A stretch of DNA of 64,000 bases from Thermus scotoductus DSM 8553 (GTDB lineage Bacteria; Deinococcota; Deinococci; Deinococcales; Thermaceae), in the NCBI RefSeq assembly GCF_000381045.1, contig NZ_KB905730.1:1-64000 (forward strand). Direction: 5' to 3'. How positions within the stretch are numbered: position 1 is the stretch's first letter; every line of letters starts with the position of its first letter. Both the position numbers and the translations under genes were made by a program. The notes beneath the pieces were generated by a model that worked only from the letters and a program-made list of their open reading frames with translations, was not told where the DNA came from and did not search any database. Positions 55,177-60,513 of this stretch are shown here, piece after piece.

Positions 55177-56610
55177 ATGAACCGGTTTCTGTTCCCAGCG
55201 CTCCTTGCGGCCACGGCGCTTCTCCTCACGGCGTGCCCCCAAACGCCTCCTCCGCCCCCGCCCTCGGCCTGTTCGCCTGTCCCTACGGGTCTTTCGGTTC
55301 AGAGGGACCAGACGCAATCCGTTAACACGCCCTATGGGGTAGGTGACTTCACAGCCCCGCATGTGCCGGGTGAACTCCTCGTCATTTCTGGAGGTTTGTC
55401 ACCCCAGGCCCTCACCTCCCGTGTGGCAGAAATCCAGGTTCAGGCTTCCTTGCCTGGTGGGGTTTTGCATGTCAAGGTACCAGCGGGTCAGGAGAGGGTG
55501 AAAGCCAGAGAGCTCGTCCAGGCAGGCGCGCGGTATGTGCAGCCGAACTACCTTTACTTCTCCCTTTATCTACCCAACGATCCCCTTTACCCCTCGAGTT
55601 TGCTAGATGGTTCCAGGGTGCGCCCCTTCTACCAAAAGATGAACCTCGAGGGGGCGTGGGATGTTGTAAGGGCCGGCTCGTGGGTCTGCACCCCGGTGGT
55701 AGCCGTGTTGGATACGGCCTTCAATCCCAATCATCCAGACCTTAGGGACAACCTGCTTCCTGGGAGGAACCTAACCCCAGACGGTCTTCCCCAAGATGAC
55801 CTCCGCCCTAGCCCTCCACCAAACGGGGCTATGTACGGCGAGAATGAACCCGACCACGGTCAAGGTGTAGCTGGCATGGTAGCAGCCACAGCCGATAACG
55901 GAGAGGGGATTCCGGGAGTTGGGCTTAACCGGGTAAAGGTGCTGCCCCTGAAGGTCTTTTTTTGGGTTTGGAACACAAGTGCTCAGCGTTACGAGTATAG
56001 CTCCACCAGTGCCGTACTAAGTAGCGCCATTCGGTATGCTGCGGATCAGAGAGCCAATGTCCTCAATTTGAGCTTAGGTAGTCCCACACCCCTTGACGGA
56101 ATAGTCCAGGACGCGGTGAGCTATGCCCTTTCCAAAGGCAGTCTGCCGGTGGCTGCGGCGGGAAACGATGGGACAGATGGGCTTATGTACCCAGCGCGTT
56201 ACCCCGGGGTCTTGGCAGTGGGCTCGGTCCGTTTGAATGGGACGCGTTCAGACTTCTCCAACTACTCCACTACCCAGACGGATTTGGTCATGGCCGCAGC
56301 CGGCAATTTGAGTCCTGGTGAAAGCCTTTGGTCTTTGGCTTTGGGAGCCTCGTACCCTTACTACTCCTCTCAGGCTCACTATTTAGCTTGGAGGGGGACT
56401 TCCTTCGCAGCCCCTCAAGTAAGTGGGGTAGCGGCCCTTTACGTGGCCAAATATGCAACGCTTTACGGAAAGGCACCTAGCCCAGACCAAATCAGGCTCT
56501 GCTTGGAGCAAACCGCTAGCAATAATGGCACCTATGTTTCTCAGACGGGTTATGGCATCGTCCAGGCCGACCGGGTGATGACGGACACCACCTACTGCTT
56601 CCCCCCTTAA
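55177..56610 (+). CDS. S8 (subtilisin-like) serine protease, probable lipoprotein
   Basis: A 477-residue protease. MNRFLFPALLAATALLLTAC is a lipoprotein signal with lipobox LTAC, followed by a Pro-rich linker and a propeptide-like region (about 45-125). The catalytic triad is Asp in VVAVLDTAFNPNHPDL, His in DHGQGVAGMVAATADNGEGI and Ser in GTSFAAPQVSGVAAL. It should act outside the inner membrane. Codon use is looser (more A/T at third positions) than in neighbours, suggesting later acquisition. TAGAGT ends 6 nt before the ATG, indicating a leaderless transcript. Confidence 0.92.
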   Translation: MNRFLFPALLAATALLLTACPQTPPPPPPSACSPVPTGLSVQRDQTQSVNTPYGVGDFTAPHVPGELLVISGGLSPQALTSRVAEIQVQASLPGGVLHVKVPAGQERVKARELVQAGARYVQPNYLYFSLYLPNDPLYPSSLLDGSRVRPFYQKMNLEGAWDVVRAGSWVCTPVVAVLDTAFNPNHPDLRDNLLPGRNLTPDGLPQDDLRPSPPPNGAMYGENEPDHGQGVAGMVAATADNGEGIPGVGLNRVKVLPLKVFFWVWNTSAQRYEYSSTSAVLSSAIRYAADQRANVLNLSLGSPTPLDGIVQDAVSYALSKGSLPVAAAGNDGTDGLMYPARYPGVLAVGSVRLNGTRSDFSNYSTTQTDLVMAAAGNLSPGESLWSLALGASYPYYSSQAHYLAWRGTSFAAPQVSGVAALYVAKYATLYGKAPSPDQIRLCLEQTASNNGTYVSQTGYGIVQADRVMTDTTYCFPP

Positions 56611-56645: not shown

Positions 56646-57800
56646 GTGCGGCGGTCGCTTCTCCTCCTGTTTTTGGCCTTGTTGGTGGCGGTGGGGCTAT
56701 GGGCCTACCCCTTGTTGGGCCCCGTGGTGCGGCACGGGGTCCTGCCAGCCCCCGAAGGGTTAAAGGCCCCCCTAACGGTGCTGGTCTACGGCTCCAGCCC
56801 CGAGTACTCCGGCTACCACCGAAGGGCCCCGGAGCGCTTCCGGGGCCTGGCGGACACCATCCTCCTGGTACGCCTGGACCCTGGGGCCAACCGGGTGGTG
56901 GTCCTGTCCATTCCCCGGGATGTTTGGGTGAACCTCCCCGGCTACGGCTGGCACAAGGTGAATGCGGCAAGCCCCCTGGGGGGACCGGCCCTGATGAAGG
57001 AGGCGGTGGCCCGGATCACCGGGGTGCAGGCGGACCGGTATCTGGTGGTGAGCACGGAGGCCCTCCGCCGGGGGGTGGACGCCTTAGGGGGAGTTAGGGT
57101 CTGCGTGGAGAAGCCCATGCGCTACCGGGATTCCGCTGCGGGGCTGGACATCGACCTCGAGCCGGGCTGCCGGGTGCTGGATGGAAAGAAGGCGGAGGGG
57201 TATTTGCGCTTCCGCAAGGATGCCCTGGGGGATATCGGGCGGATCCAGCGCCAGCAGGCCTTCTTTCACGCCCTGAAGGAGCAGGTGCTTTCCCCTTCCG
57301 GGTTACTCCGCCTGCCCCGTGCGGTGGCGGCGGTGGAGCCCTACTTCCAAACCGACCTATCCCGCGAGGAAAAGGGAGCCATCCTGGGCTTCGCCATGAA
57401 GCAACCCCACCTGATGAGTCTCCTTTTGCCGGGGAACTTCGGGGGAGGGGGTTGGAACGTGGACGAGGAGGCCCTGCGGCAGCTTTTGGCCGTTTACTTT
57501 GATGGGGAAGCGCCGGGGGAGAAGGGGGAGCTTACGGGGCGGCTGGTGGCCCTGGTCTATGGACCCGGGCAGGAGGCCCTGGTGGAAAAAGCCCGCTTGA
57601 GGCTAAGCGAGCTGGGCCTGAGGGTGATCCTCCACCCGGTGGACCTGCCTCCTTCCCGCACGGAGGTGCTGGAAAACGGGCCTGGTCTCCTGGCCCAGGC
57701 CTTGGGGGAGGCGTTGGGGGTGCCCTACCGCATCTCCGGGGAGGCGGTTTTAGGGGCCGACCTCACCCTGCGCCTTGGCGCCGAGGCTCCCTTTTTGTAG
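56646..57800 (+). CDS. LytR-CpsA-Psr (LCP) family protein
   Basis: A 384-residue protein with one N-terminal membrane anchor (RRSLLLLFLALLVAVGLWAY). The LCP domain follows: DTILLVRLDPGANRVVVLSIPRDVWV and YGWHKVNAASPLGGPALMKEAV with the Arg and Asp residues that bind polyprenyl-pyrophosphate, and VCVEKPMRYRDSAAGLDIDLEPG. A LytR_C-like domain ends the protein (LVALVYGPGQEALVEKARLR onward). LCP enzymes attach glycopolymers to peptidoglycan. It starts on GTG; TATGCT ends 8 nt before it. Confidence 0.9.
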   Translation: MRRSLLLLFLALLVAVGLWAYPLLGPVVRHGVLPAPEGLKAPLTVLVYGSSPEYSGYHRRAPERFRGLADTILLVRLDPGANRVVVLSIPRDVWVNLPGYGWHKVNAASPLGGPALMKEAVARITGVQADRYLVVSTEALRRGVDALGGVRVCVEKPMRYRDSAAGLDIDLEPGCRVLDGKKAEGYLRFRKDALGDIGRIQRQQAFFHALKEQVLSPSGLLRLPRAVAAVEPYFQTDLSREEKGAILGFAMKQPHLMSLLLPGNFGGGGWNVDEEALRQLLAVYFDGEAPGEKGELTGRLVALVYGPGQEALVEKARLRLSELGLRVILHPVDLPPSRTEVLENGPGLLAQALGEALGVPYRISGEAVLGADLTLRLGAEAPFL

Positions 57801-57814: not shown

Positions 57815-57902
57815 GCCGGGGTGGCGGAACGGTAGACGCTGCGGACTTAAAATCCGCTGGGGGGTTACCCCCGTACGGGTTCGAGTCCCGTCCCCGGCAC
57901 CA
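57815..57902 (+). tRNA. tRNA-Leu (UAA anticodon)
   Basis: The acceptor stem GCCGGGG pairs with CCCCGGC, followed by discriminator A and an encoded CCA. The anticodon arm reads GCGGACT-TAA-AATCCGC, giving anticodon UAA (leucine). The long variable arm (TGGGGGGTTACCCCCG) is class II, as expected for leucine, and the T arm contains GGGTTCGAGTCCC. It is preceded by its own promoter and followed by a terminator. Confidence 0.97.
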
Positions 57903-57906
57903 GGAG

Positions 57907-57933
57907 GCCCCGGGTTTCCCGGGGCTTAACCTT
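57907..57933 (+). terminator. Terminator of tRNA-Leu
   Basis: GCCCCGGG-TTT-CCCGGGGC (57907-57925) is a perfect 8-bp stem followed by TTAACCTTT. Confidence 0.75.
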
Positions 57934-57944
57934 TCAGCCTTGAT

Positions 57945-59036
57945 ATGCTTAGGTTCGTGGGCGTTCTCACCCGCTATTTGGAAAAGTCCATGGCCCAGGC
58001 CCGTTACGACCTCCTGGGCCCTGGCCGTTTTGTGGCCGAGCTTCCCGAGCTGGGCCTGCGCGTGGAAGCTCCTCACCTCGAGGCCGCCCGGGAGAGCCTG
58101 CAGGAAGCTCTGGAGGCCTGGCTTTTGGATACCCTGCGTGCGGGCCTTACCCCGCCGGGGCTGGAAGGGGCGGAGGATCCCGTGCGCACCCGTTTCCTGG
58201 CCTTGACCCGGGAGATCTGGCGGCTTTTCAAGGAATCCGGGGAAGTGGAGGGGACGAAGGCGGGAGCAGTTCCTGCCCCGTCCACCCGGGTGCAGGAGCC
58301 CTCGAGGGCAAAAAAGGCACCTTCGCTGGAGGAATGGCTGAAGGGCCTGGGCATCCAAGTGGTGAAGAAGCCCCAGGAAGAGGAGGAGAAGGAGAAGGTT
58401 CTGACCCGCCTGGGCCTGTTCCTGGGGGACCGCTACCCCAGCCTGGAAAAGCTTTACGAGCGCCTCAAGCAGAGCCTTTCCACCAAGCGTCAGTTTGAGC
58501 TTTCCCTTTCCGAGGCCACCCAGGAGGAGATCGCCAACTCCACCCAGTTCTGCACCATGCTCAAGCAGTATGCCCTCCTCACCTCCTATCACTACAAAAG
58601 CGAGGAGCGGCGCATCCGGGCCAAGGCCAGCACGGAGGGGTGGGTGCAGAACTTCCTCACCGGGGGCTGGCTGGAGCGGTACGTGGCGGAGCGGCTTCGC
58701 AAGTTCCTGCGTTCCCGCAACCTGGCCCACGAGGTGGCGGTGGGTTACCAGGTTACCCTGCCCAACGGGGACACCATGGAGTTGGACGTGCTCCTCAGGG
58801 TGGGGGAGCGCTTCTTCTGGTTTGAGGCCAAGACGGGGGACTTCCAGGCCCATATCGCCAAGTATGCGGGGCTGAAAAAGGTCCTGGGGCTTTCCGCCAG
58901 GGAAAGCTTTCTGGTGCTTTTGGGCATGGACAAGGCCCGCGCCAAGGAGCTTTCCGCCCTACATGGGCTCACGGTGGTCAACCAGGCGAACTTCTTGGAC
59001 ATCTTCCAGGAGGTGCTGGAGGGGAATGCTGCGTAA
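57945..59036 (+). CDS. HicB-like domain fused to a Card1/Can2-like PD-(D/E)XK nuclease
   Basis: A 363-residue protein with three parts. Residues 1-65 (ARYDLLGPGRFVAELPELGL, then AARESLQEALEAWLLDTL) follow the HicB antitoxin fold pattern. Residues about 66-230 are a charged linker and helical region (PSLEKLYERLKQSLSTKRQF). Residues about 235-355 form a PD-(D/E)XK core: GGWLERYVAERLRKFL (E244), TMELDVLLRVGERFFWFEAK (D281, E294, K296), as in DUF1887/Card1/Can2 effector nucleases. No CARF sensor is present. Nuclease activity and the sensing role are inferred. It follows the tRNA terminator and overlaps murJ by 11 bp. Confidence 0.72.
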   Translation: MLRFVGVLTRYLEKSMAQARYDLLGPGRFVAELPELGLRVEAPHLEAARESLQEALEAWLLDTLRAGLTPPGLEGAEDPVRTRFLALTREIWRLFKESGEVEGTKAGAVPAPSTRVQEPSRAKKAPSLEEWLKGLGIQVVKKPQEEEEKEKVLTRLGLFLGDRYPSLEKLYERLKQSLSTKRQFELSLSEATQEEIANSTQFCTMLKQYALLTSYHYKSEERRIRAKASTEGWVQNFLTGGWLERYVAERLRKFLRSRNLAHEVAVGYQVTLPNGDTMELDVLLRVGERFFWFEAKTGDFQAHIAKYAGLKKVLGLSARESFLVLLGMDKARAKELSALHGLTVVNQANFLDIFQEVLEGNAA

Positions 59037-60513
59037 GGTCCTCCTGGTCATGGGGGGCACCCTGGCCTCGAGGGTCTTGGGCCTGGTGCGCCAGGCGGTC
59101 TTCAACGCCCTGTATCCCGACGTCCTGAAGGATGCCTTCAACGTGGCCTACCGGGTACCGAACCTCCTCCGGGAGCTTTTGGCGGAGGGGGCGGTGCAAA
59201 ACGCCCTCATCCCCCTCCTGAAGAACCTGCCCGAGGAGGAGGCCCGGTCCTTTGCCCGGCGCTTTGGGGCGTTTCTCTTCGGGGTGAACCTCTTGGTCCT
59301 GGGCCTGGGTTATCTCTTGGCCCCCTGGGTGGTGAACCTGCTGGTGGCTCAGGAAAGCCACCTCCGGCAGGGGGAGGCCTTGGGGCAGGTGGTCTACCTC
59401 ACCCGGCTTCTCTTGCCCTTTCTCCTGGGCATCTCCATGGCTGCCCTCTTCTCCGCTCTTCTTCAGGCGGAGGAGCGCTTCCTGCCCTACGCCCTGGGAC
59501 CCATTGCCTTCAACCTGGTGGCCATCGGCCTCATGGCCCTCTTCCCCGGGGACCCCACCTTCCTGGGGCTTTCCGTGGCCCTGGGGGGGCTGGTCCAGGC
59601 CCTGGTCCAGCTTCCCTTCCTTAGGGGTTTCCGCCTGGAGTGGCGCTGGCACCAGGCCTTTCTCCCTGCCCTCCTCCGCATGGGGCCCTTCGCCTTCACC
59701 ACCTCCTTGCGGCAGTTTCTCAACCTGGTTCTCACCCACATCCTGACTCGCTACCCCCCGGCGGCGGTCACGGGGTTCTACAACGCTGAGGTGATCTTCC
59801 AGATGGTCCTGGGGCTTTTCGCCACCTCGCCCGCCATCGCCCTTTTTCCCCGGATGAGTGCCCTGAAGGGCGAGGAGCTGGCCCGCTTTCTTACAGGTCC
59901 CCTGAAGCGGCTTACCCTCCTTCTTTCCCTTCTCGGGGGGATGCTGGTGGCCCTGGCTCCTTTCGTGGTGGTCTTGCTCTTCGGCCTCTTTGGCCCCCTT
60001 ACCCCGGAGAACCGGGCGTACAGCACCCAGGTCCTCGCCGCCTTGGGGTTTGCCGTCCTGCCCTGGGGGGTGAACACCCTGCTCCTCAGGGGGCTTTATG
60101 CCCTGGGGCGGATACGGGAGGCGGTTTTCGCCAGCGCCCTCGTCTTCCTGACCAACACCCTGGGTTACTGGCTTCTTAAGGATGCCGGGCTTTTCGCCCT
60201 GAACCTGGCCACCGCCCTGGCGGGGTACTTGGGGCTTTCCCTTTACCTTCGCCTCCTTAAACGGGAGGGAGTGGGGATTCCCGAGCTACCGGGCTTCCTT
60301 CTAAAAGCCTTACTGGCAGGGCTTCCCGTGGCCTTACTCGGGTGGATTCTTGGGTGGGTCTTCCCCGTGGCCCAGGCAGGGCAAGCCCTTTTGCCCCTCC
60401 TGCTTGGGGGGGGGTTAGGGCTTGGGGTTTTCTTGCTTGCCGCTTGGCTTCTCGGTCTACCTCTTAAGGCCCTCCTCGCCAAACCTCCCTCAGGCGGAAG
60501 TAAAGGGGCTTAA
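59026..60513 (+). CDS. murJ: Lipid II flippase MurJ (MviN)
   Basis: A 495-residue MOP-superfamily membrane protein with about fourteen helices that moves lipid II across the membrane for peptidoglycan synthesis. It starts MLRKVLLVMGGTLASRVLGL, with VRQAVFNALYPDVLKDAFNVAYRVPNLLRELLAEGAVQNALIPLL, the family signature including the Arg residues of the cavity. GGAGGGGA precedes the ATG, which overlaps the end of the nuclease gene. Its 3' end overlaps the convergent small gene by 50 bp. Confidence 0.94.
   Translation: MLRKVLLVMGGTLASRVLGLVRQAVFNALYPDVLKDAFNVAYRVPNLLRELLAEGAVQNALIPLLKNLPEEEARSFARRFGAFLFGVNLLVLGLGYLLAPWVVNLLVAQESHLRQGEALGQVVYLTRLLLPFLLGISMAALFSALLQAEERFLPYALGPIAFNLVAIGLMALFPGDPTFLGLSVALGGLVQALVQLPFLRGFRLEWRWHQAFLPALLRMGPFAFTTSLRQFLNLVLTHILTRYPPAAVTGFYNAEVIFQMVLGLFATSPAIALFPRMSALKGEELARFLTGPLKRLTLLLSLLGGMLVALAPFVVVLLFGLFGPLTPENRAYSTQVLAALGFAVLPWGVNTLLLRGLYALGRIREAVFASALVFLTNTLGYWLLKDAGLFALNLATALAGYLGLSLYLRLLKREGVGIPELPGFLLKALLAGLPVALLGWILGWVFPVAQAGQALLPLLLGGGLGLGVFLLAAWLLGLPLKALLAKPPSGGSKGA

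Follow-up and report, generated by a model that had tools for sequence, protein, structure and literature searches.

A Card1/Can2-type nuclease of the Thermus core genome has a HicB-type domain instead of CARF

Card1 and Can2 have been studied as effectors that are activated by cyclic oligoadenylate, and what else can switch the nuclease half of these proteins is a testable question. It arises at a locus of Thermus scotoductus DSM 8553, where a 64,000-nucleotide stretch (contig NZ_KB905730.1 of assembly GCF_000381045.1, positions 1 to 64,000 of the forward strand; hereafter the window) contains an open reading frame of 363 codons at 57945-59036 (+ strand). An initial annotation, made from the sequence alone, read this frame as a HicB-like domain fused to a nuclease core of the Card1/Can2 type, and proposed that it encodes a self-contained defence or stress nuclease. 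Here we ask how the protein is built, in which genomes and beside which genes it is kept, where its N-terminal domain comes from, and what might control its activity.

Gene start and domain architecture

The frame can open at ATG 57945 or at GTG 57957, the ATG start adding four residues. Homologues and stand-alone UPF0150 proteins begin with MG[VIT]LTRYL at the GTG codon, and the putative ATG falls, in nearly all Thermus, inside TGnTATGCT, an extended -10-like sequence placed exactly 7 nt 5' of the conserved GTG. Both features favour GTG 57957 as the probable true start, which would give a coding sequence of 359 amino acids at 57957..59036 (+). The -10-like element of the window, TGATATGCT (57941..57949, +), is kept in most Thermus upstream regions; because a generic sigma-70 scan called no two-hexamer promoter at the gene, we treat it as a putative promoter. 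Leaderless mRNAs are common in Thermus, and the transcript of this gene may likewise be leaderless, with its 5' end at or near the GTG.

In the 363-residue numbering used throughout, the protein consists of a UPF0150/HicB-type domain (residues 5-73; 57957..58163, +), a linker made of a helix and a disordered segment (74-123; 58164..58313, +), a helical/winged-HTH part common to Card1, Can2 and VC1899 (124-231; 58314..58637, +), and a Card1/Can2-type PD-(D/E)XK nuclease domain (232-360; 58638..59024, +). A confident AlphaFold2 model (mean pLDDT 85.8) shows two ordered parts separated by a linker that is disordered. The HicB-like pattern noted at the N-terminus is borne out by the Pfam family UPF0150 (PF21748; 54.1 bits over residues 10-71, cut-off 27.3, E 1.5e-14) and by TTHA0281, a stand-alone UPF0150 protein of T. 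thermophilus (PDB 2dsy), which matches residues 5-73 with a phmmer E-value of 7.7e-10, or 5.7e-12 when the family profile is used. The domain is modelled at pLDDT ~92 as alpha-beta-beta-beta-alpha (H7-17, E20-25, E28-33, E38-42, H45-65). Foldseek paired this fold with the UPF0150 structure 2yzt at probability 0.98 and E 0.23, a match that is weak by E-value, and the identification of the N-terminus therefore comes mainly from sequence. In the linker, a helix (79-97) is followed by a disordered, fast-evolving stretch rich in Pro and Glu (98-123) with pLDDT < 50. No CARF domain was found: residues 1-73 are UPF0150, 98-123 are disordered, and a Rossmann domain of ~140 residues would not fit, so that a HicB-type domain does occupy the place of CARF, as first proposed.

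The proposed Card1/Can2-type nuclease core is recovered by several comparisons. The PADLOC model CARF4-CARF_PDDEXK matches residues 122-337 (E 3.4e-15), a 41-row profile of the family finds Cdn1, Can2, Card1 and VC1899 (E 5e-7 to 3e-6), and all structures at Foldseek ranks 1-17 are Cdn1, VC1899 or Can2 (E 1e-10 to 2e-5, over ~250-300 aligned columns). The Pfam family Card1_endonuc (PF09002), weak on its own, gives 21.0 bits against a cut-off of 26.4 (E 2.7e-4), and no Thermaceae protein scores above its curated cut-off. A search of NCBIfam with the protein returned nothing useful, only a single chance match, and a second Card1 domain was looked for in the same genome and not found. The helical middle that the initial annotation had set apart is present, but it is not a separate feature: it corresponds to the helical/winged-HTH part found in Can2 and VC1899 as well. 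In VC1899 a winged-HTH middle domain precedes the endonuclease domain (PMC1462988), and the nuclease half of Can2 has an extra motif of four helices and two strands (PMC7969007).

The active site is fully conserved. E244 (in GGWLE; codon 58674..58676, +), D281, E294 and K296 had been picked out in the nuclease core, and each is identical in 41 of 41 homologues, whose overall identity goes down to 22%; so is E279, which had been overlooked. E279 and D281 belong to an E-L-D motif (codons at 58779..58787, +), and E294-A-K296 is the E-x-K motif (58824..58832, +). In the profile alignment, E279 and D281 correspond to E276 and D278 of SthCan2, whose E276A/D278A double mutant is inactive (PMC7969007). 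Judged by these residues, the protein is very probably an active, metal-dependent nuclease, predicted to act on DNA as Can2 does. Neither a failure of the HicB match, which was obtained mainly by sequence, nor a loss of the D/E-x-K residues among homologues was seen, and the overall layout is that of Card1/Can2 with CARF replaced by UPF0150.

Distribution and neighbourhoods

When 111 Deinococcota genomes were searched in six frames, the gene was found in 27 of 27 Thermus genomes, and relatives turned up in further genera of the order. Two Thermus copies are split, both in the two least complete assemblies, and the splits are probably sequencing errors. About half of the Meiothermus-type genomes gave no match, suggesting that the gene is dispensable there (this label and Oceanithermus-type follow our own reading of the genome group codes). 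Across Thermus and its sister genus g5, median dN/dS was 0.17 for the UPF0150 domain, 0.16 for the winged HTH, 0.13 for the nuclease and 0.41 for the linker; for the whole gene it was 0.19 versus 0.20 for the neighbouring murJ, indicating comparable purifying selection. Distances measured on the gene and on murJ correlate moderately (Pearson 0.76, Spearman 0.48), which supports vertical descent only loosely. Four Thermus genomes, each 99% complete (G045, G048, G052 and G055), have the gene while Cas1 and Cas10 both went undetected. Phage, plasmid and viral-contig collections gave no relative of the nuclease, only a bare HicB domain, and PHROGs yielded no matches. Independence from Cas10, core status and this absence from phage and plasmid collections together mark the Thermus gene as a resident chromosomal core gene that does not need cyclic-oligoadenylate signalling; activation by cyclic oligoadenylate without a CARF domain is unlikely.

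The tRNA neighbour and the coupling to murJ that had been read from the window are both there. A LytR/CpsA/Psr-family gene (56646-57800) and a tRNA-Leu gene (TAA; 57815..57902, +) precede the gene, and the start of murJ, encoding the lipid II flippase (59026..60513, +; PF03023, E 1.2e-69), overlaps its stop by 11 nt. Most Thermus have the same arrangement, with LytR and tRNA-Leu upstream and murJ downstream; the tRNA neighbour is missing in basal Thermus, the overlap or abutment with murJ is retained in Thermus, and adjacency to murJ extends to genus g5. Upstream of the LytR gene, the window also encodes a subtilisin-type protease that is predicted to be secreted and has a lipoprotein-like signal (55177-56610, +). 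A GC-rich hairpin 3' of the tRNA (57904..57927, +; -32 kcal/mol for a 71-nt region, z -2.2) has similar palindromes in most Thermus and is probably the tRNA terminator, although a terminator scan made no call at this position. The tRNA was also considered as the mark of a mobile island, an idea ruled out by an adjacency conserved across most Thermus species and a dN/dS that matches that of murJ.

Could the protein instead be a regulator, cotranscribed with murJ, that serves the envelope or translation through murJ or tRNA-Leu? The 11-nt overlap and the conserved adjacency would fit such a role, but Meiothermus-type and Oceanithermus-type genomes do not have murJ beside the gene, the tRNA is absent in basal Thermus, and an intact nuclease active site is ill-suited to a purely regulatory function; we regard this reading as highly improbable. 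Another neighbour appears in three basal Thermus (L033, L034 and L037) and in genus g5, where the order is sbcD-sbcC-gene-murJ, the oldest visible Thermus neighbourhood of the gene; in G070 the sbcC match stops about 10 nt 5' of the gene. This link is seen in four genomes only, and most Thermus have sbcC elsewhere, in several about 60 kb off on the same contig. Since Meiothermus-type genomes have argH and carA beside the gene, and Oceanithermus-type genomes the order proB-proA-gene, no neighbour is common to all. The sbcDC neighbourhood and the core status nevertheless suggest a role in DNA maintenance, whether processing or surveillance, which we put forward tentatively as a little short of an even chance.

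Card1 and Can2, the closest members of the family, are type III CRISPR effectors, and the protein might likewise be an anti-phage or anti-plasmid effector, innate or CRISPR-linked, in which UPF0150 senses infection and invading DNA is cut. Relatives without UPF0150 lend substance to this view. They have a short helical N-terminus; some belong to Meiothermus-type genomes and have no cas neighbours, and a few Aquificota carry them as well. Three of the Aquificota copies, which also lack CARF (L071:7117-8049, L072:6761-7693 and L073:7293-8177, all on the - strand), are flanked by cas6 and a cas8b-like gene in type I cas operons, accompanied by Cmr genes in L071 and L072, and a frameshifted Persephonella copy (L008:5681-6594) has the same cas6 and cas8b-like neighbours. 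PADLOC, moreover, includes a stand-alone '1XMX-type' PD-DExK model (PDLC01131), so CARF-less, CRISPR-linked forms are already known in kind. For this part of the family, the position in cas operons favours a defence role. There is also a fusion, in genome G009, with three 36-nt CRISPR-like repeats at a spacing of 78 nt about 430 bp upstream (L123:4082-4282); no cas genes were recognised in that 10-kb stretch.

For Thermus the evidence runs against defence. There the gene is core and vertically kept, it is present in genomes where Cas1 and Cas10 were not detected, it has not been seen on plasmids or in phages, and its oldest visible company is sbcD-sbcC. In the Thermus, Meiothermus-type and Oceanithermus-type loci whose immediate neighbours were read, these are housekeeping genes, with no defence or cas gene identified among them, in keeping with the lack of a CRISPR locus first noted around the window gene. 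We therefore consider a defence function unlikely, and the proposal of a self-contained defence or stress nuclease finds no support in Thermus.

Two further copies deserve mention. The copy in G009 (L035; family f4, genus g12) is 67% identical to the window gene, against ~39% for its family mates of genus g14, and is a possible case of transfer between thermophiles. One UPF0150-less Aquificota copy (L074:7045-7950, +) is an orphan: it has no cas genes nearby and stands among housekeeping genes, one of them smpB-like.

A genomic slot shared with hicBA

The origin of the N-terminal domain can be traced at a second locus. The genome of the window also has a stand-alone UPF0150 gene, in the order argH-GNAT-hicB(UPF0150)-hicA-carA. 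This hicB-hicA pair lies between an acetyltransferase gene and carA (L111:3237-3690, - strand, on G000:C37); its hicA passes PF07927, and its hicB scores 102.8 bits for UPF0150 and is 42-46% identical to the N-terminal 70 residues of the fusion. We compared the GNAT-carA slot across 50 Thermaceae genomes. Among the 27 Thermus genomes, the slot holds hicB-hicA in eight (one of them, the incomplete G061, with a frameshift), decayed remnants in four and nothing in 15, and the pair is found there in genus g5 as well. Ten Meiothermus-type genomes have the slot filled by the UPF0150-nuclease fusion itself (argH-GNAT-fusion-carA). In G034, finally, only a UPF0150-like remnant is left in the slot, and the fusion lies elsewhere, directly 3' of a hicA gene (PF07927) that it overlaps or abuts (L058:3723-5152 / L171:8085-9511), with a transposase-like gene downstream. 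The fusion and the HicAB pair are thus alternative occupants of one locus, and this shared position argues strongly for an origin of the N-terminal domain from a HicB-type antitoxin.

This descent allows a reading as a toxin-antitoxin system, in which a HicB-type antitoxin is joined to a nuclease. Its UPF0150 domain would bind a HicA mRNA interferase, and the binding or loss of HicA would switch the nuclease or the operon, making a two-layer stress module. The exchange of hicB-hicA for the fusion between argH and carA and the bicistron of G034 both point this way, as does a UPF0150 tree in which the fusion domains of Meiothermus cluster with stand-alone hicB (85/100). The same tree, however, does not reject a single fusion clade (p-AU 0.30), and the nuclease tree favours one (support 68/96); the fusion may have formed once or twice. 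The fusion, moreover, is universal in Thermus whereas hicBA at the argH locus is patchy, so its HicA is not a general partner, and a hicA gene adjoins the fusion in G034 alone and is absent beside the Thermus gene. A G-x-[ST] segment that is present in stand-alone hicB and in Meiothermus-type fusions is replaced in Thermus fusions, which makes it less likely that the Thermus proteins act as antitoxins than that those of Meiothermus-type genomes do. We judge the toxin-antitoxin reading improbable. The link to the HicAB locus does give some support to the earlier suggestion that the domain may be an unusual sensor or autoinhibitor, a reasonable role for it.

A proposed mechanism and its relation to known systems

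We favour, at roughly an even chance, a CARF-less Card1-type nuclease that is gated by a HicB-derived domain and has a resident role in DNA processing. In this mechanism the UPF0150 domain, borne on a flexible linker, would take the N-terminal place of the cyclic-oligoadenylate sensor of Card1/Can2 and would act as a dimerisation and control module that answers to a protein or nucleic-acid partner, not to cyclic oligoadenylate; predicted dimerisation and gating through UPF0150, which stands where CARF acts, seem somewhat more probable than their absence. Most likely a homodimer and dependent on Mg/Mn, the nuclease would nick or cleave DNA, and perhaps single-stranded nucleic acid; in Thermus it would most plausibly work in DNA processing or surveillance beside SbcCD, and be neither CRISPR effector nor mobile toxin. 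Counting against this explanation are the sub-cut-off score for PF09002, the restriction of the sbcDC link to four genomes, the lack of a universal neighbour, the absence of a match in about half of the Meiothermus-type genomes, and the place of close UPF0150-less Aquificota relatives in cas operons. In a more specific form, a HicA-like protein or an RNA or DNA ligand, not a cyclic nucleotide, would switch the nuclease, and the winged-HTH/nuclease half would be a general cassette; this is possible, though on the unlikely side. If true, one effector cassette would be fitted with varied sensors: type III CRISPR effectors would carry CARF, the forms encoded in cas operons a helical N-terminus, and the Thermaceae core protein a HicB-type domain.

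Thermus, a model thermophile, has the same cutting half fixed in its core genome and keeps it without CRISPR, which shows that this half of the effector also exists independently of CRISPR, and searches of the PADLOC type would mislabel such core genes as CRISPR ancillary proteins. The two occupants of the argH-carA slot, hicB-hicA and the HicB-nuclease fusion, form a natural pair for a direct test of the switch. Our survey comprised one peptide-pattern search of public genomes and, for two phyla, searches of whole genomes. The literature searched, the scope of which fell short of the Makarova 2020 survey of the CARF superfamily, contained no account of a fusion between HicB and a nuclease.

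Among known systems, the nearest are Card1, Can2, VC1899 and Cdn1 (DUF1887, PF09002; PDB 6wxw, 7bdv, 1xmx and 8z4i/9u49), which have the same winged-HTH and PD-(D/E)XK half, with the same order of elements and the same catalytic residues (GGWxE, ExD, ExK). The Thermus protein differs from them in having UPF0150 and a ~50-residue linker instead of CARF, in scoring below the cut-off of PF09002, and in being kept without type III CRISPR (Cas10). The '1XMX-type' CARF-less PD-DExK proteins of cas loci (PDLC01131; L071, L072 and L073) share the winged-HTH/nuclease module too, but their Aquificota copies have a short N-terminal helix instead of UPF0150 and sit between cas6 and cas8b-like genes. UPF0150/HicB-type proteins such as TTHA0281 (PF21748; PDB 2dsy) consist of the domain alone, whereas here it is fused to a nuclease and, in Thermus, has lost G-x-[ST]. 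HicB is usually a protein of its own or part of a fusion with an RHH or Xre DNA-binding domain (PMC2701414). With HicAB modules the fusion shares a genomic slot in the Thermaceae and, in one genome, a hicA-fusion bicistron; yet here the HicB-type domain sits on a nuclease, and the fusion is universal in Thermus and was not seen on plasmids or in phages, unlike what would be expected of a patchy, mobile HicAB system.
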